Shown piece after piece: positions 4,918 to 47,982 of a stretch of DNA of 49,854 nt (position 1 is its first letter; the number at the start of each line of letters is the position of its first letter). The notes under the pieces are model-generated. The model saw nothing but the letters and a program-made list of their open reading frames with translations, had not been told where the DNA came from and made no database searches. The stretch is taken from the IMG/VR virus record IMGVR_UViG_3300013099_000026, positions 1 to 49,854 of that record. One strand, given 5' to 3'. This stretch comes from a virus. Position numbers and translations under genes: made by a program.

Positions 4918-7698
4918 TTAAATAATCCTTAAACTATCCCGTTGTACATCAAAAAAAGGAACGGGTGTCGCTTCTAGCTGTAAATCAATTACGGGTGCTT
5001 GACCAGAAACATGCGATATTGATAAATATACCTTGGTTACGCCATCCATTTTTAAATATTCAAGCGTTAAGATGTGAACAAAAACACTCGTACCATTTAA
5101 ACCACGTTTTATATTCGATGTTGCTATCGCGTTTACCTTAGCCACATCAAAAATAAGGTCGCTAATCATTATACCCTTGTGTAGTAATTGCTCATAATAC
5201 CAAGGCAACACGCCCAGCGTGGTAGGAATGCTTATCGGCGCGTGGGTGATCGTTTTAATTAACACTTCATTAAAAAATATACTATCCTCAGTCACTACAG
5301 GTATGCTCGGTATAAATTCCCTAATTCGTACTTGAAATGTTGCTGTCACGTCTTGACGTATCTCACTAATGACTGCTAAACCCGTTTCCATATCTACGTG
5401 AGTAAAGCAAACCATCGCAATCGCGCCTGAACTTGAAAAATTCAGCCCTGTATTATCGTGGTGTTCCGTAGCAGAAAAAGACCATGTTTTCTTTACCACA
5501 CCATTAATATTAAAGGAATATGTGCCTGTTTCAGTCGAGTTTACGTTAGTAGGCGGCCCGTCATACAGTCCATAGGTATCGGCTGTTAGCTCATAAACTA
5601 CTCGCGCGTTATTATGTGCGCCCACAAAAAGCTGATAAGTTCCGTTAAATGTGAAAGGGTAGCCCTGCGCCGGTTGGGTCAAATATTCCGCGCCCAAATC
5701 CTGAACGCCTTCTCGGGTCTCATCTAATGTACAAATAACATCAAAAGATAAATCCTCGCCCACTAAATCCAGCGTATAAAGTTCATAAGTTATTGATAAG
5801 GTGGTAGGTTTTTCGAAATATGTGCGGTGCTTTCGCCATGCAAAAAACCCTTTTTTACTGTCATCGGTAAAACATGCTTTTTGATAGAATGCCCCATGAT
5901 AGTAGTTGATAGTAGGGGGGAAATTTAAAATTTGACCTATACGGTATAGCGATCCATCGCGGTTATATAAAGACCACTCGCCTTTTATATCAATTACCAG
6001 CACGCGCTTTTTAGGTATTACAACGCAACCTAAAATTTTATGGTGGCTATGATTTAACAACAACTTACCTTTATAGAAAACATCTTGAATATAAGCGCCG
6101 GTCGGTGGCTGTACCCCCCCACCTACTTGGTGCTGCTTCAAATTGTAGGCATGAATCCTGTTTTCTACAGGCAGTCCGTAATATTCACCTTTTCCTAAAT
6201 CCCACGATACCGCGCCGAATTGGGTTGACGTATTAACATAACCACATTCAAGCTTTGTATTGTATTCGGGTAAGTTTTTAACGGTTTTAGGCAGTTTATA
6301 CGTTGTATTTGTTACCCCCGTTATCTGTCTTAACGGCTGCCCTGCTTCCAAAACTGCGACAATATTATCCGGTTGAGGTGAAGCGTGAACACCTAAAATA
6401 TAATTCAAGCATTCCTCTGGCTCTTTTTGAAAACCTACCACTACCGGTGTGTTCCAATCGCTACGAAAACCTATAATTACTAAATCATCAACTAAAAATA
6501 CCGCCGCGTTGCACTCACCATAACGTACAGGAACATTCACAATAATATTGTGATCTTTGTTTATCGGTAGGCTTAACTGGGAACTTTTTTCATTTTTGAG
6601 TAAAACGGTGCAGGTATCAAGACCATAATTAATGGCGGTTATTGTGCCTTTTCTAAACACGGGTCGCCATTGCTGTAATCCCGGTAAAATAGCCTTATTG
6701 TAAAATGTAGCTTCTGGGGATGATGCTAGAACAGGCTGTACTTGTTTTGTTGATGCTAGAATAACGCCCTTATCTACCTCATCCGCCACTATTATCGCGC
6801 TTATCCTGTCTTTTTCAGCTTGTTTTAAAACTATTTCCGCATCTATTTTTTCTATTTTTCGCGTTTGCGCGTCCTTTGTTTTAAAAAATAAAGCCTGTTC
6901 TCCTACAGTTGTTTTTATGTCCTGCTCTATACTATCGATTTCATAATTATCATTATCGTTTATAGCGGCTATCAACGCATTCTGTAATGCTGCCAGAATA
7001 TTGATATTAGCTGCTATTTTAGCGTTGGTACTGTTACGCTCGCCAACTAATACACCTCGTCTATTAGTTGCTTTATCAATTAAAGCTTGTTCAATTAGCA
7101 AATCATCGGCAACGGGCTTGTATGTCATTGGTGCTATCCATGATTTACCTGTTTCTTGTGATACTTCAACCGTTTTTACTATAGAACCTAATGGTATCTC
7201 TGGCATGTAATCAATCGCCCAGTGGCGCGTAGGCGTTGGTTCTTCAACTGCTATGGTGAATTTACTTTCTCTATCTTTGGCAGTTGATAGCAAAGCGCGT
7301 GTAAAATTTAGCTTATACGCTGCGCTATCCGCTACTGCATTCTGTTTTTCGAGTACATTTAAAGCAGTGTTTAGGGTTTCGTGTTCGGGTATATTTATTA
7401 CTGATCCGTTAGCGGTATCAACTAGTTTAAGGTTGCCGTCTTTTTGAGCTAGTGCGGCGGTGGCTGCACTAGCGGCGGTATTGAACGCAGTTTGTGCGAT
7501 AACTGCCTTGTTTCTTAATGTGTTTTGGTGTGCTTTTTCTTGCTGGAACTCAATATTAAATATAGCAACTCTTTCTTCTAACGCGGTTATTTGCGTACCA
7601 AGTAGTGCGAGCCTTTCCACCGCCCGAGCCGTGTCTTTTGTTGTGATGGCTTTATATTCACCATCCCCCACGTTTTCTGTAATTGTCGCAATACCCAT
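4918..7698 (-). CDS. Large tail-tip / adhesin-like structural protein
   Basis: A 926-residue protein, the last of the minus-strand structural block. The N-terminal third is alanine- and glutamate-rich and partly coiled coil (about 45-140 and 240-310). Around residues 340-430 a beta-rich segment, including a run ending DWNTPVVVGFQKEPEECL, resembles the OB-like hub segment seen in tail-tip proteins. The rest is long beta-strand sequence with many Tyr, Gly and Thr residues, as in receptor-binding or tail-surface proteins. Placement after the tape measure and other tail genes supports a tail-tip or host-recognition role. No enzymatic motif is seen. Confidence 0.6.
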   Translation of the reverse strand: MGIATITENVGDGEYKAITTKDTARAVERLALLGTQITALEERVAIFNIEFQQEKAHQNTLRNKAVIAQTAFNTAASAATAALAQKDGNLKLVDTANGSVINIPEHETLNTALNVLEKQNAVADSAAYKLNFTRALLSTAKDRESKFTIAVEEPTPTRHWAIDYMPEIPLGSIVKTVEVSQETGKSWIAPMTYKPVADDLLIEQALIDKATNRRGVLVGERNSTNAKIAANINILAALQNALIAAINDNDNYEIDSIEQDIKTTVGEQALFFKTKDAQTRKIEKIDAEIVLKQAEKDRISAIIVADEVDKGVILASTKQVQPVLASSPEATFYNKAILPGLQQWRPVFRKGTITAINYGLDTCTVLLKNEKSSQLSLPINKDHNIIVNVPVRYGECNAAVFLVDDLVIIGFRSDWNTPVVVGFQKEPEECLNYILGVHASPQPDNIVAVLEAGQPLRQITGVTNTTYKLPKTVKNLPEYNTKLECGYVNTSTQFGAVSWDLGKGEYYGLPVENRIHAYNLKQHQVGGGVQPPTGAYIQDVFYKGKLLLNHSHHKILGCVVIPKKRVLVIDIKGEWSLYNRDGSLYRIGQILNFPPTINYYHGAFYQKACFTDDSKKGFFAWRKHRTYFEKPTTLSITYELYTLDLVGEDLSFDVICTLDETREGVQDLGAEYLTQPAQGYPFTFNGTYQLFVGAHNNARVVYELTADTYGLYDGPPTNVNSTETGTYSFNINGVVKKTWSFSATEHHDNTGLNFSSSGAIAMVCFTHVDMETGLAVISEIRQDVTATFQVRIREFIPSIPVVTEDSIFFNEVLIKTITHAPISIPTTLGVLPWYYEQLLHKGIMISDLIFDVAKVNAIATSNIKRGLNGTSVFVHILTLEYLKMDGVTKVYLSISHVSGQAPVIDLQLEATPVPFFDVQRDSLRII

Positions 7699-25173: not shown

Positions 25174-25205
25174 TTTAAAATCTCCTTTTGTTTTAAGTTG
25201 TGTCT

Positions 25206-25234
25206 AGTATACTAAAACAGTTTACGTGTGTAAA
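25206..25234 (-). promoter_or_regulatory. Repeated promoter copy 1 (TTTACA-17-TATACT)
   Basis: On the minus strand TTTACA (25229-25234), a 17-base spacer and TATACT (25206-25211) form a strong sigma70 promoter driving the small gene and the portal. The -10 overlaps the palindrome TAGTATACTA, and upstream lies GTGAGCTAGTTCC. The same block of about 60 bases recurs at 34538 and 34927. Confidence 0.7.
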
Positions 25235-25324
25235 GGAACTAGCTCACGTTTTAAGTATTGTATTTCAGTAGTTAATTTCAATAGTGTATAATTATATTTC
25301 ACTTAACAATAAAAAGAGAATTTA

Positions 25325-26011
25325 ATGCAAAAAGAACTTGTCGAAGTACGCAACAATAAAGTATTTACTACCAGTAACATAATCGCGACTGAGTTTGGTA
25401 TCGCTCACATGGAACTACTGCGAAAAATGGATAATTTGACTATGGAAATTTCCATAGTCGAATTTAAAGGGATGTATACAGCATCCACGTATAAAAACAC
25501 AAAAGGACGCGAGTATAGGAACTTCCATTTAACGCGAAAAGGTTACATGTTCCTAGTTATGAATATTTCCACAAAGAAAGCGCACAGTAAAAAATTAGCT
25601 TTTATCGATGCTTTTGACTTAATGGAAGAAGCTTTAAGAAAACTATTGACCAATAAGTCAGATTTAGAATGGACTTCTACACGATTAATAGGTAAGACTG
25701 CTAGACGTGAAGAAACGGATATAATCAAGGAATTTGTTGAATATGCTACAAACCAGGGGAGCAAATCAGCAAAATTTTATTATAAGCATATCACCAACGC
25801 ATCCTATAAAGCATTAGGTCTAATGGCTCAAAAACATCCAAAATTAAGGGATCAAATGAGTATATACGAATTAAGCGAGCTTATGTTAGCTGAAAGATTC
25901 GCAGCTAATAAACTAAAGGAATATATGGCACTAAAAATGCACTATAAAGATATTTACCATACATTAAGGTATGATTTAATTGTGTTTGGTAACGCGCTAA
26001 AACTTAATTAA
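25325..26011 (+). CDS. Rha family regulatory protein, lone plus-strand gene
   Basis: A 228-residue protein, inverted relative to all its neighbours. Residues 10-100 are a full Rha domain (VFTTSNIIATEFGIAHMELL, GREYRNFHLTRKGYMFLVM, KKLAFIDAFDLMEEAL). The C-terminal part (KTARREETDIIKEFVEYATN, then SKSAKFYYKHITNASYKAL) is a second domain often attached to Rha proteins. TATAAT at about 25287 may be its -10. As an inverted single gene inside the late block it looks like an independently expressed moron. Confidence 0.85.
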   Translation: MQKELVEVRNNKVFTTSNIIATEFGIAHMELLRKMDNLTMEISIVEFKGMYTASTYKNTKGREYRNFHLTRKGYMFLVMNISTKKAHSKKLAFIDAFDLMEEALRKLLTNKSDLEWTSTRLIGKTARREETDIIKEFVEYATNQGSKSAKFYYKHITNASYKALGLMAQKHPKLRDQMSIYELSELMLAERFAANKLKEYMALKMHYKDIYHTLRYDLIVFGNALKLN

Positions 26012-26316: not shown

Positions 26317-26931
26317 TTATTCAGGAATGAACCCTTCTTGTTTAAGTACAGTAATTAAAGCGTGTTCTGGGTAGGCGTTTATTTTACCGAATCTAGGGTC
26401 AGGTTGTTTTCCAATAGGATAACCATGGTGTCTACAATATTTAGCTGCTTTTCTGCCTAATGTGTTGGCTGCTTGTATATCTATATTACCTAATTCAGCA
26501 AACACAAAATAAGCCATTACGGTAAACTCGTTTACAACTCTATCAATTACGTGTTGCTTTGCTTCAATAGCTTTTAATCGCGTATTAGTAACTTTTTGAT
26601 TGTTTTCTATCTCTGCCATCTTTGAAAAGCCTTGCGCCAACATCTCTAATTGAGATAGCTTTGGTTGACTATTAAACGCTTTTGCTACTGAATAGGCTAT
26701 TTTTGGTTCATACTGTCCAGCAAGCGTTAGGGATAAATCTCTATCCAGTGAAAGCATGGGTTTTTCACGCTGCATAGAGTCTTTGTAGATGGCGGAAAAA
26801 TTCCCTTCATCTATTCCAAGATCATTCAATAGCTTACGGGCTTTTTTCAATACGTCATAATGTGCCGTACCCGTTAACGCTGCAAAATCCAAAGTGTTCA
26901 TTTTATCGTTTACTATGTTTAATTCGGGCAT
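26317..26931 (-). CDS. Rha/Bro-like regulator with winged C-terminal domain
   Basis: About 204 residues. The longest frame starts at 27012 but its first codons lie inside a hairpin, so I choose the ATG at 26931 (MPELNIVNDK), preceded by GGAAGAATAAAG; 26946 is the alternative. The N-terminal domain (MNTLDFAALTGTAHYDVLKK) is Rha-like, a linker LSQLEMLAQGFSKMAEIENN is shared almost exactly with the protein at 29391-30032, and the C-terminal domain (FTVMAYFVFAELGNIDIQAA to KINAYPEHALITVL) is homologous in both. A transcription regulator or antirepressor is likely. Confidence 0.7.
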   Translation of the reverse strand: MPELNIVNDKMNTLDFAALTGTAHYDVLKKARKLLNDLGIDEGNFSAIYKDSMQREKPMLSLDRDLSLTLAGQYEPKIAYSVAKAFNSQPKLSQLEMLAQGFSKMAEIENNQKVTNTRLKAIEAKQHVIDRVVNEFTVMAYFVFAELGNIDIQAANTLGRKAAKYCRHHGYPIGKQPDPRFGKINAYPEHALITVLKQEGFIPE

Positions 26932-26951
26932 CTTTATTCTTCCCATAAAAA

Positions 26952-27024
26952 AAAACCGTTGCTCTGAAATGCACTTTAAGATGAAATACGAGTAGTATTC
27001 AGTGCATATCAAAACAACGGTTTT
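26952..27024 (-). terminator. Terminator-like leader hairpin before Rha-like gene
   Basis: In the direction of the gene AAAACCGTTG (27015-27024) pairs with CAACGGTTTT (26952-26961), with an inner pair TGCACT/AGTGCA (26970-26975, 27001-27006), and the right arm runs into a stretch of T. It lies just before the start codon, with a -10-like TATACT (27074-27079) upstream, so the transcript first meets an intrinsic-terminator shape, as at other Rha genes here. Confidence 0.6.
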
Positions 27025-29390: not shown

Positions 29391-30032
29391 TTATTCTCCT
29401 AAAGGTTTAAAAATAATATTTAATATATCTACATGGTAACTATTAACATAGCCCCAACGCTCATCGGACACGCGCCCGATGTTAATATTTAATTCCTTAC
29501 TTAGTTTGGTACACGCTTTGCCGTGCCTTACAGCTAATTTTAGCGGTTCGGCTAGATTATTTATCCTAGCGTAAGCTAATACAGTTAAAAATCCTGTATC
29601 TCCATTCTGTAGTAATTGTTTTTCTTCAACAGCTTCTATCCGCCCTTGTTGCTCCGTTAACGTCTGACTTATCTTGTTTTGATTGTTTTCTATCTCTGCC
29701 ATCTTTGCAAAGCCTTGAGCCAACATCTCTAATTGAGATAATGGAGGCGTTTTTTCCAATTCCTGCCAGCGTTTGATGATTATCATTCGTATATTAGCAT
29801 CGTAACCGCTAATCAAACATAAAGAAGAATCTTTGTCTAAGTCAAACATTCTATTTGTTTTACCTGAAATATCTTTATAGGTACTTGATTTAAAGCCTAA
29901 ACTCATATCTGAGCTTAGTGATTTAAGTACTACATCAATATCCCGTAAAACATTTTTATGTGTTTTACCTGTGAGCGTTGCAATCTCTTTACTTGTCATT
30001 GTTGCATTTACATTTCCAATTAAATCTTGCAC
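29391..30032 (-). CDS. Rha-type regulator with winged C-terminal domain
   Basis: About 213 residues starting from a GTG at 30032 that follows TTAGGAGAAG; the longer in-frame extension to 30155 runs through a terminator-like hairpin and is unlikely. The Rha domain shows MTSKEIATLTGKTHKNVLRD and MFDLDKDSSLCLISGYDANI. A linker LSQLEMLAQGFAKMAEIENN and the C-terminal domain (GFLTVLAYARINNLAEPLKL, GYVNSYHVDIL) match the 26317-26931 protein. Likely a phage antirepressor or regulator. Confidence 0.75.
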   Translation of the reverse strand: MQDLIGNVNATMTSKEIATLTGKTHKNVLRDIDVVLKSLSSDMSLGFKSSTYKDISGKTNRMFDLDKDSSLCLISGYDANIRMIIIKRWQELEKTPPLSQLEMLAQGFAKMAEIENNQNKISQTLTEQQGRIEAVEEKQLLQNGDTGFLTVLAYARINNLAEPLKLAVRHGKACTKLSKELNINIGRVSDERWGYVNSYHVDILNIIFKPLGE

Positions 30033-30087
30033 TTTTACTTCTCCTAAAACTTCAACTTTAAAAAGGTAGTTGATAAACCTGTAAACA

Positions 30088-30163
30088 TAAAAAAAGCCAT
30101 ACTGTACTAGATCAGGGTAGGATGGGCAAAGTGTGAAGCCCTCTGATCTGTACAATATAGCTT
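30088..30163 (-). terminator. Long leader hairpin with T-run before Rha gene
   Basis: In the gene direction the arms 30139-30163 and 30094-30117 pair over about 23 positions with a few mismatches or bulges, and the second arm is followed by TTTTTTT. It lies between the promoter at 30204-30232 and the GTG start, so the promoter would first yield an RNA of roughly 110 nt ending in an intrinsic terminator. Confidence 0.6.
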
Positions 30164-30203
30164 TGTTTACACGCTTTTTAAGGTATCCTACAACCTGTAA
30201 TAA

Positions 30204-30232
30204 ATTATACCTTATGTATTAAAATAATGTAA
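30204..30232 (-). promoter_or_regulatory. Promoter sharing sequence with the CRISPR-repeat RNA promoter
   Basis: TTACAT (30227-30232), a 17-base spacer and TATAAT (30204-30209) on the minus strand. The whole segment, AGGGTT then ACATTATTTTAAT and AAGGTATA, matches the promoter at 35796-35824 at nearly every position, so the two form a distinct phage promoter family placed before structured RNAs. Confidence 0.65.
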
Positions 30233-30235
30233 CCC

Positions 30236-30568
30236 TTAAATCTTCCGATAAGGTTTAAATAATCGGTCTAAGTTTTTATCTAACGGCAGCTTGTTAGCGT
30301 TAACTTGTTGATAAATATACGCTTTTAATCCATTTGTACCCCCTATAGCATTTAACGTCTGTAAGGCTGGTTTTTCACCTTTCACCACAAACGCCAAAAT
30401 TACATTAATAGCGGTATCGTGTTCTATTTGCTCACACGCTTTAAGCGTTGCCCCTATTACATCCGATCGCGTTACACCACATAACAAGGCTAGGCGGTCA
30501 AGACTAATAAAAGCCTTACCTGTGCTTGTTATTGTAAACCCGTTCTTTTCTTCAATTAATTCTGTCAT
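30236..30568 (-). CDS. Small DNA-binding protein of the antirepressor-like family
   Basis: A 110-residue protein with the opening EKNGFTITSTGKAFISLDRL and LLCGVTRSDV shared with 1387 and 28991, and GLKAYIYQQVNANKLP later. It lies directly after the large terminase gene. The small terminase subunit was not otherwise found, so this or a neighbour might fill that role, but the family resemblance favours a regulator. An AGCAGTGTT word lies 33 bases upstream. Confidence 0.6.
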   Translation of the reverse strand: MTELIEEKNGFTITSTGKAFISLDRLALLCGVTRSDVIGATLKACEQIEHDTAINVILAFVVKGEKPALQTLNAIGGTNGLKAYIYQQVNANKLPLDKNLDRLFKPYRKI

Positions 30569-34504: not shown

Positions 34505-34537
34505 GGTGTATTCTCCGTTTTGTTTTAAGTTGTGTCT

Positions 34538-34566
34538 AGTATACTAAAAGAGTTTACGAGTGTAAA
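34538..34566 (-). promoter_or_regulatory. Repeated promoter copy 2 (TTTACA-17-TATACT)
   Basis: Minus-strand TTTACA (34561-34566), 17-base spacer and TATACT (34538-34543), with the TAGTATACTA palindrome at the -10 and GTGAGCTAGTTCC upstream, nearly identical to copies at 25206 and 34927. Drives the small peptide and HTH genes. Confidence 0.7.
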
Positions 34567-34585
34567 GGAACTAGCTCACGTTTAG

Positions 34586-34865: not shown

Positions 34866-34926
34866 TTTATATATTCCTTTTGAAAGGTTGTTTTACTTAA
34901 AGAACCTTTTTCTTTAAGTTGCCTAT

Positions 34927-34955
34927 AGTATACTAAAACAATTTACTTTTGTAAA
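34927..34955 (-). promoter_or_regulatory. Repeated promoter copy 3 (TTTACA-17-TATACT)
   Basis: Minus-strand TTTACA (34950-34955), 17-base spacer, TATACT (34927-34932), in the same conserved block as copies 1 and 2, though with TAGTATACTATAGG at the -10 and GATCTAGTTCC upstream. Reads into the acidic-protein gene. Confidence 0.7.
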
Positions 34956-35051
34956 GGAACTAGATCACACTTTTTAAACTAAATTTTAAGTTGTTGATTT
35001 CAAAAGGATTTATTTTTAAAATAATTTAAATTATTTATTGATTTTTTTAAG

Positions 35052-35325: not shown

Positions 35326-35637
35326 TCATTTGCACAGTTTTACTGCCGAGGGTTCTCCATAAAAACTACATGTGCGTTTGGCAGGTGTACCGTCTTTCTT
35401 TATTTTGTAGAATTGCATTGCATAACGGTGTCCGTACATACCCCCTTTTATTGCCGCTACGATATAACATTGATCTCTATAGTCTACTTTATCCCCAATG
35501 GAAAACGGACATAAAACGATCGCGAGGCTTTTAATTTCAGCCGCTAGGTTCTCTTTTATCGCGTTACTTTGCACATATAACCGCGCAATCTCTATTTTCT
35601 TTTCTTCAATGAATTTAATTTTCTCTTCGGGTGTCAT
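35326..35637 (-). CDS. Small protein downstream of CRISPR-repeat RNA
   Basis: A 103-residue protein: an N-terminal coiled coil (PEEKIKFIEEKKIEIARLYV) and a beta-rich C-terminal part (FSIGDKVDYRDQCYIVAAIK, TCSFYGEPSAVKL). It follows within 27 bases of the hairpin that ends the CRISPR-repeat transcript, so read-through could express it, and its function may be linked. No family recognised. Confidence 0.55.
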   Translation of the reverse strand: MTPEEKIKFIEEKKIEIARLYVQSNAIKENLAAEIKSLAIVLCPFSIGDKVDYRDQCYIVAAIKGGMYGHRYAMQFYKIKKDGTPAKRTCSFYGEPSAVKLCK

Positions 35638-35657
35638 TTTTTAATCTCTCTTTTTGT

Positions 35658-35695
35658 GAAAAAAGCAGTGTTAAGGCTTATTTTTTAACACTGCT
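35658..35695 (-). terminator. Hairpin-plus-T-run terminator built from the AGCAGTGTT word
   Basis: In the minus direction AGCAGTGTTAA pairs with TTAACACTGCT (plus 35685-35695 and 35664-35674), ten-base loop, and is followed by TTTTTT. It closes the CRISPR-repeat RNA unit at a length of about 130 nt. The stem is the same word that recurs in leaders across the genome, but here with a T-run. Confidence 0.65.
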
Positions 35696-35763
35696 TAGAG
35701 TTTGTTATATTTCAGGGTCAGTCTTAAAGTTGTGAGGGGTTAAGCCATCATAATCATGATCAG

Positions 35764-35791
35764 TTTCTAAGCTGCCTGTACGGCAGTGAAC
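35764..35791 (-). ncRNA. Solitary type I-F CRISPR repeat (candidate RNA anti-CRISPR)
   Basis: The 28 bases on the minus strand begin GTTCACTGCC, have the loop GTACA, then GGCAG and end CTTAGAAA. This matches type I-F CRISPR repeats: length 28, the 5-bp stem CTGCC/GGCAG with a 5-base loop recognised and cut by Cas6f (Csy4) after the stem, and the 8-base CTTAGAAA handle. There is one copy only; no second repeat lies 32 bases on either side, so it is no array. A promoter with its -10 four bases upstream and a terminator downstream make it a dedicated small-RNA gene. Phage-borne solitary repeat units are known to act as RNA anti-CRISPRs (Racr) that draw Cas6f and Cas7f into dead complexes. Function here is inferred. 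Confidence 0.8.
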
Positions 35792-35795
35792 TAGA

Positions 35796-35824
35796 AATAT
35801 ACCTTGTACATTAAAATAATGCAA
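35796..35824 (-). promoter_or_regulatory. Promoter firing directly at the CRISPR repeat
   Basis: TTGCAT (35819-35824), a 17-base spacer and TATATT (35796-35801) on the minus strand place the start at about 35789-35791, the first bases of the repeat. The segment is nearly the same as the promoter at 30204-30232, which precedes another structured leader. Confidence 0.6.
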
Positions 35825-35831
35825 CCCTAAT

Positions 35832-36161
35832 CTATTTATTTATAATGGCTGTAATCGCTTTGAGTTTATCGTAGTCTAATTCACGGAACGCTACACAGGC
35901 TAAATCTTCTAATAACGCATCTTTTAACGCCGTGATTCTGATAACTTCTACCGCATCCGATGTCGCTTCTTTTAATTTTAAGCGTCTATTTTGTGCGCAA
36001 TTAATCCCGATACTGTAACAAGATGTTTTGTTGTACCTATTTCCATCATCCAATGCAATTAATGTAGCTGTAATACGTGTTACAGTTGCCACATAATCGC
36101 GTTTAAACGCGCCCCTAGGTGTTACTACAATAACCCTAGTACCTACTTCAAGCTCGGTCAC
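35832..36161 (-). CDS. Small beta-barrel-like protein
   Basis: A 109-residue protein starting VGTRVIVVTPRGAFKRDYVA then TVTRITATLIALDDGNRYN, the look of an SH3/KOW-like barrel, followed by a helical C-terminus. It ends just upstream of the CRISPR-repeat promoter. Not recognised further. Confidence 0.5.
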   Translation of the reverse strand: MTELEVGTRVIVVTPRGAFKRDYVATVTRITATLIALDDGNRYNKTSCYSIGINCAQNRRLKLKEATSDAVEVIRITALKDALLEDLACVAFRELDYDKLKAITAIINK

Positions 36162-47310: not shown

Positions 47311-47339
47311 ACGGGTTGCCTCTAAAACCCGTTCTTTTT
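47311..47339 (+). terminator. Leader hairpin with T-run before Rha gene
   Basis: ACGGGTT (47311-47317) pairs with AACCCGT (47326-47332), followed by TCTTTTT, just before the ribosome site of the Rha gene. A shorter version of the leader terminators seen before other Rha-like genes; it would also end the SSB-like transcript. Confidence 0.6.
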
Positions 47340-47351
47340 AGGAGAAACAAA

Positions 47352-47918
47352 ATGACAGGATTAATAGCAAAGAATAAAGATCAATCAACAATGACCTCTT
47401 TAGAGTTAGCTAAGGTTTTTGGTCAACGGCATGATGATGTTTTACAAAGATTAGCTAGGATAGCGGTCTCTTCTGGAGGACTCGGTACATGTACGGAGTC
47501 CTATTATTTAAATTTACAAAACAAAAAGCAACCTATGATGATAATAGATTCTAGGGTAGCTTTAGACTTTGCATCTTCATCAAGAAAAGAAAACGCACCA
47601 GCTTTGTTAATGCAATTAATGCAAAAAATGATAATGCAGCAACATCAACCAGCGATTGAAGAACAAGCCGCAACCATAAAACAACTCAAGCAAGAGTTAA
47701 AAGATAGACCTATAAAAACTATTGGTATGAGTTCACCCGTTAATCGTAAATCCTTACACGATCAAAGAGAAGAACTGCATGATTCGGGTTTATGTGATAA
47801 ATGGACTAAGCAAGTAAGGCATTGCTACTATCCAGTTAATGCGCTAGGAAAGGAAAAAGGATATAAAAACACGGGAAAAGGTAAAAACAAAACTATAGAT
47901 TTAAATACGGTGGCTTAG
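47352..47918 (+). CDS. Mosaic Rha regulator
   Basis: Start at the ATG 47352 after TTAGGAGAAAC; a frame 12 codons longer runs through the hairpin. 188 residues. Codons 1-25 are nearly identical to those of the Rha-GIY-YIG gene at 818 (MTGLIAKNKDQST). The rest of the Rha domain follows (QRHDDVLQRLARI). From about residue 100 a coiled coil and the module IKTIGMSSPVNRKSLHDQRE match the end of the 1387-2007 protein. It thus looks like a fusion of the two neighbours at 818-2007, as if by deletion in a duplicated locus. Confidence 0.8.
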   Translation: MTGLIAKNKDQSTMTSLELAKVFGQRHDDVLQRLARIAVSSGGLGTCTESYYLNLQNKKQPMMIIDSRVALDFASSSRKENAPALLMQLMQKMIMQQHQPAIEEQAATIKQLKQELKDRPIKTIGMSSPVNRKSLHDQREELHDSGLCDKWTKQVRHCYYPVNALGKEKGYKNTGKGKNKTIDLNTVA

Positions 47919-47926
47919 GACACCAA

Positions 47927-47960
47927 AGCAGTGTTAACAAATAAAAACCCTAACACTGCT
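47927..47960. repeat. Intact AGCAGTGTTA hairpin with 14-base loop
   Basis: AGCAGTGTTA (47927-47936) and TAACACTGCT (47951-47960) are perfect reverse complements. The loop and right arm hold CAAATAAAAACCCTAA, the word that is duplicated around the KilA-N gene at 2025 and 2720. It lies between the Rha gene and the HNH-like gene and has no T-run, so a leader element or operator fits better than a terminator. Confidence 0.75.
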
Positions 47961-47982
47961 CTATGCACAACAGGAGAATATC

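Follow-up and report, generated by a model that had tools for sequence, protein, structure and literature searches.

A virus genome of 49,854 bases from IMG/VR (the window, meaning the whole stretch of DNA analysed) carries one complete type I-F CRISPR repeat, at 35791-35764 on the minus strand, between a predicted phage promoter and an intrinsic terminator. This unit is probably a phage gene for a small RNA mimicking the repeat of the host I-F system and acting as an RNA anti-CRISPR (Racr), in the form of a decoy for Cas6f. The Racr/SRU (solitary repeat unit) kind of element is already known (Camara-Wilpert et al., 2023; PMC10651486), and the unit may itself be among the 2,103 viral SRUs already published; it comes from a new phage lineage. 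On this reading, a clean RNA anti-CRISPR gene is added from a phage lineage without a close sequenced relative, and its start-site layout brings the generality of the RacrIF1 mechanism into question.

The solitary repeat

The repeat matches the Rfam family CRISPR-DR4 (RF01317) from end to end (model positions 1-28 of 28, 50.1 bits, E = 6.6e-9 over both strands of the 49,854-base window), and no further Rfam family exceeded its cut-off in the window. One loop base is its sole difference from the family consensus. The predicted fold has the stem CUGCC/GGCAG, a 5-nt loop of GUACA and the handle CUUAGAAA, in agreement with the full I-F repeat that a preliminary description of this DNA had placed here. 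The same description held the repeat to be single and without a partner, which is borne out: the whole record contains one match at up to three mismatches, and no second repeat lies within 400 nt of 35791-35764 at up to nine. The 100-nt flanks match the repeat at 43-54%, level with shuffled flanks. When searched against the window with blastn-short, the repeat scores 56 bits (E = 1e-11) and the runner-up match is just 10 nt long. The repeat occupies an intergenic gap (35638-35831) between two ORFs of the same strand and is free of overlapping ORFs of 60 aa or more.

By the SRUFinder criteria of Camara-Wilpert et al. (2023), a solitary repeat is intergenic, resembles a known CRISPR repeat with identity and coverage of 90% or more and a score of at least 41.1 bits, and has neither a second repeat, whole or in part, within 100 bp nor cas genes; for a Racr, a promoter within 250 bp upstream of the repeat is also looked for. 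The repeat at 35791-35764 qualifies on every SRUFinder count, with 100% identity and coverage over 28 nt and 56 bits against 41.1. A predicted 34-bp promoter element ends 3 nt before it, and no Cas family was recognized in the roughly 40 window proteins scanned. The features of the locus are collected in Table 1.

Table 1. Features of the solitary-repeat locus and the second copy of its promoter element, in window coordinates.
Feature	Positions	Strand	Basis or remark
Solitary type I-F CRISPR repeat, GTTCACTGCCGTACAGGCAGCTTAGAAA	35764..35791	-	Rfam RF01317, solitude, fold
Predicted phage promoter element, AGGGTTGCATTATTTTAATGTACAAGGTATATTT, TTGCAT-17-TATATT	35795..35828	-	Second copy, weight matrix
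Second copy of the promoter element, AGGGTTACATTATTTTAATACATAAGGTATAATT, TTACAT-17-TATAAT	30203..30236	-	29/34 identity
Body between repeat and terminator, 67 nt	35697..35763	-	First 32 nt are the would-be pseudo-spacer
Intrinsic terminator, 12-bp perfect stem AAGCAGTGTTAA/TTAACACTGCTT, 10-nt loop, T run	35659..35696	-	Fold, stem scan
Upstream neighbour, 109 aa	35832..36161	-	Weak phrog_9662 match (E 1e-6); ProQ_C-like match below cut-off
Downstream neighbour, 103 aa, orphan	35326..35637	-	Start codon 25 nt past the terminator stem

Promoter, body and terminator

The hexamers TTGCAT-17-TATATT named in the preliminary description are present as stated. They are weak by consensus alone, being absent from the list of 9-of-12 consensus matches, and with a weight matrix they form the sole candidate near the repeat above the cut, a score reached by 70 of about 99,600 positions. 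The consensus scan itself proved uninformative, with 28 sites found against 27.7 expected; in this AT-rich DNA such sites are no more frequent than chance, and a consensus promoter score therefore means little here. As judged from sequence, the decisive support for the predicted promoter comes from the recurrence of the entire 34-bp element at another place in the phage genome. The two copies have the same orientation and are identical at 29 of 34 positions, against at most 24 of 34 for shuffled sequence compared with the union of both copies. The copy at 30236-30203 has a perfect -10 box and stands upstream of a Rha-like/anti-repressor gene (29391-30155, minus strand), and the 34-bp element has no match in other viruses. 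Identity between the copies stops just before the repeat, which puts the predicted start of transcription at repeat bases 1-5.

Two further repeated features of the window concern the same classes of gene and element. Four Rha-like/anti-repressor paralogues (26317-27012, 29391-30155, 47316-47918 and 25325-26011) share stretches of up to 97% identity. A 66-nt element is present in three copies that are 83-97% identical (25186-25251, 34518-34583 and 34907-34972); it holds TTTACA-17-TATACT on the minus strand and is probably a second promoter family of the same phage.

At the other end of the unit, the terminator that had been described about 130 nt on is found at 35696-35659 as a 12-bp stem and T run, and the predicted transcript from repeat start to terminator measures about 130 nt. 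The terminator bears the motif GCAGTGTTAA, of which the window has 26 matches at up to one mismatch, against 5 expected. The motif often stands at gene ends, and a similar hairpin occurs once, at 47926-47961. A related observation is that (A)AGCAGTGTTA is found at window positions 2013, 2741, 9783, 18371, 28041, 30608, 35665, 37824, 39636 and 47926, in most cases at gene ends and sometimes with the full hairpin, as a phage-specific family of terminators or operators.

The stop codon of the 109-aa gene is followed in order by 3 nt, the promoter, 3 nt, the repeat, the 67-nt body, the terminator, 25 nt and the next start codon. This places the stop codon 40 nt before the repeat, and promoter, repeat, body and terminator account for nearly the whole of the gap. 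The description of a stand-alone I-F small-RNA gene and candidate Racr is thus supported by all of the sequence-level tests run. With a phage promoter element present in two copies on one side of the repeat and a terminator on the other, the layout speaks against a DNA site, with no RNA role, by which the phage would insert into CRISPR arrays through recombination. Such a function has been proposed in the literature for some units, and the 28-bp identity with host arrays would suit it. However, no integrase was recognized among the window proteins scanned, and a recombination site is considered extremely improbable.

The phage and the neighbouring genes

The IMG/VR virus record encodes terminase, portal, protease, major capsid and tape measure proteins, together with the replication and recombination proteins DNA polymerase, primase and Sak4. 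The phage is previously undescribed and siphovirus-like. No close relative of the whole window was found at the DNA level among the 50,697 phage genomes of INPHARED, and the closest major capsid protein in IMG/VR (L054) is 49% identical. The I-F repeat is absent from all 20 IMG/VR records with a related major capsid that were checked.

Neither protein encoded beside the repeat matches an Acr or Aca family or has relatives in IMG/VR, and the 109-aa upstream protein has none in INPHARED. The suggestion that these genes belong to a counter-defence island therefore finds no support. The position of the unit directly upstream of the 103-aa gene, on the same strand, would also fit cis-regulation, in which Cas6f cuts a leader RNA, thereby senses the host I-F system and tunes that gene. 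A strong terminator nevertheless stands between the two, the 103-aa protein is unlike any known anti-defence protein, and no relative was found in which the unit and the gene are linked as a pair; this reading is judged very improbable. Nothing but position and identity favours cis-regulation or DNA recombination.

Cognate arrays and the search for a host

The exact 28 bases occur in at least 119 stretches of GTDB genomes, mostly in ordinary I-F arrays of Enterobacterales. Among the matches listed, arrays built of the identical repeat belong to many Gammaproteobacteria, with examples in Photorhabdus, Serratia, Escherichia, Pectobacterium and Providencia, and also in Pseudoalteromonas, Photobacterium, Shewanella, Methylococcales and others. 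The Racr interpretation was said to depend on I-F systems being present in some plausible host, and arrays with the identical repeat are indeed common. In a small sample of 1739 I-F array spacers none matches the window, the best being a 17-nt exact match and otherwise 19 of 21. A small sample of 10 genomes had no match to the window other than the repeat, and neither did a thin sample of 369 class-mates, given a shallow first look with some 34 kb of the window; no prophage was found in these samples.

Solitary exact I-F repeats were also noticed elsewhere. One (L051:233-260) lies between two copies of GCCGGAGCGTATCCGGCACAAG, another (L031:686-713) directly follows an apparent tRNA 3′ end, and chromosomal examples occur in Erwinia persicina (L111) and Yersinia similis (L122).

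The unit might alternatively be what is left of a mini-array, or a guide with a single spacer, the first 32 nt downstream of the repeat serving as a spacer against a rival phage. The perfect handle means that a guide-bearing end could form. However, an I-F complex requires a 3′ Cas6f hairpin, which is absent here, and neither a second repeat nor a hairpin is present at 60 nt. A search of 50,697 phage genomes and 72,556 plasmids revealed no protospacer. A mini-array, which the preliminary description had set out as the alternative to a Racr, thus gains no support from the searches for a second repeat and a protospacer, and is regarded as highly improbable. Two more specific candidates were rejected. 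A pseudo-spacer target in T5-like DNA polymerase genes (20 of 21 nt, E = 3) is not anchored at spacer base 1 and is attributed to chance, and for guide-like regulation of cas promoters the best match across 119 host-array loci was 18 of 32, where shuffled sequences averaged 17.5.

Proposed mode of action

As an RNA anti-CRISPR, the unit would be expressed from the phage promoter, its transcript beginning within the opening bases of the repeat. The resulting RNA of about 130 nt would carry a Cas6f hairpin at its 5′ end and the phage terminator at its 3′ end. Host Cas6f would bind the hairpin, cut after GGCAG and remain on a product of 15-20 nt, and Cas6f held in this way would be diverted from the real pre-crRNA, inhibiting the I-F system of this phage's host. 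The 3′ half would open with the 8-nt handle CUUAGAAA and may also engage Cas5f/Cas8f, but it could not complete Cascade because there is no second Cas6f hairpin.

The mechanism worked out for RacrIF1 is built differently. Its repeat is bound and cut by Cas6f, and I-F interference is inhibited; Cas6f and 8-9 Cas7f, without Cas5f/Cas8f, are found on the stretch of about 70-76 nt that precedes the cut (PMC10651486). Most of the inhibition is reported to come from this upstream product, a handle-only variant being inactive, and Cas6f retains about 16 nt after cutting (PMC10651486). With about 50 nt or more of RNA upstream of the repeat taken as the mark of a RacrIF1-like mechanism, the present unit does not show it if the predicted start is the main one. 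The predicted start on the repeat leaves a hairpin of at most 20 nt, and therefore either trapping of Cas6f alone or the handle-bearing 3′ half must act. A bare hairpin suits Cas6f and not a Cas7f filament, so that sequestration of Cas6f, perhaps helped by the handle half, is favoured. The trapping of both Cas6f and Cas7f, as first suggested for this unit, does not follow, since Cas7f in RacrIF1 sits upstream of the cut, where at most 20 nt are predicted here. It can tentatively be proposed that the mechanism of this candidate Racr differs from that of RacrIF1.

A RacrIF1-like mode would instead operate if the unit were reached by read-through from the 35832-36161 operon, with Cas6f capping a long 5′ RNA and Cas7f coating a dead filament. 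The gene upstream has the same orientation as the unit and stops 40 nt short of the repeat, and read-through would yield the one mechanism shown biochemically. The sole promoter candidate near the repeat, however, is the duplicated phage element that starts on the repeat, and no dedicated promoter was seen further upstream. Read-through is accordingly viewed as unlikely.

Promoter-on-repeat units in other mobile elements

When IMG/VR was searched for I-F repeat cores with a -10 box 3-9 nt ahead of them, five contigs came up. Four are mobile elements in which the -10 box lies 2-7 nt before the repeat (L008, L209, L210 and L211), and the fifth (L048) is an ordinary array; 6 of 2018 host repeats have a -10 box at that spot. 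L209 (1497-1524, minus strand) and L210 (minus strand) are microviruses of 4.6-4.8 kb whose solitary repeat lies between TATAAT and a hairpin, before the replication gene. The solitary repeat is found in these two of 80 related microvirus contigs and is absent from the other 78; the two repeats differ in loop and handle and have the same stem. L211 is a P4-like satellite with a solitary I-F repeat (5117-5144, minus strand), a -10 box 7 nt upstream of it, and isrK and C4 antisense RNA about 200 nt downstream. The unit of L008 has two hairpins and a spacer of 18 nt.

The promoter-on-repeat layout thus looks recurrent in unrelated elements, as far as the sequences go. A hairpin-first class of Racr, with the Cas6f hairpin at the 5′ end and no Cas7f filament, may have arisen repeatedly (in the window phage, in L209/L210 and in L211), a proposal that is somewhat more doubtful than not. 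If true, it would mean that I-F immunity can be blocked by Cas6f sequestration alone or by a free 5′-handle half.

A separate observation concerns two-hairpin I-F units with spacers of 14-20 nt, found in nine phage contigs, about eight of them independent (L297:11821, minus strand; L302:1450; L008:1268; L298:5833; L299, L300 and L301, all minus strand; L029:1430; L303:2308). They often have a degenerate second repeat and a terminator, and resemble pseudo-crRNAs whose guide is truncated. The spacers of host I-F arrays are 32-33 nt long in more than 98% of cases, and four are between 13 and 23 nt. The published SRU survey, as described, excluded repeat pairs by design (PMC10651486), and the two-hairpin, short-spacer units may therefore be an undescribed class of decoy.

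Comparison with known systems

The window unit can be set beside three kinds of repeat-bearing RNA. CRISPR-derived regulatory RNAs of the crlRNA/CreR type are repeat-containing RNAs encoded outside an array, and the window unit, a predicted repeat-containing RNA gene outside an array, resembles them in this. It differs in lacking the 3′ hairpin that a full complex needs, and its seed matches in host array loci do not exceed those of shuffled controls. With phage-borne mini-arrays, such as those of archaeal viruses (PMC6858448), it shares a host-type repeat in a virus without cas genes; unlike these, it has neither a second repeat nor a targeted spacer.

The closest likeness is to RacrIF1 and the SRUs, as described by Camara-Wilpert et al. 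(2023; PMC10651486): a single intergenic I-F repeat in a phage, with a promoter nearby, no cas genes and a hairpin that matches host-type repeats. Nine tested Racr candidates, some of them I-F, are reported to have inhibited their systems. RacrIF1 has some mismatches to its target repeat, whereas the window repeat is perfect, and at most 20 nt are predicted upstream of the cut here, compared with the Cas7f-coated 70-76 nt or so of RacrIF1. A contrast results: the one mechanism known in detail depends on RNA that precedes the repeat, but in this gene and in several unrelated elements the predicted promoter sits right on the repeat.
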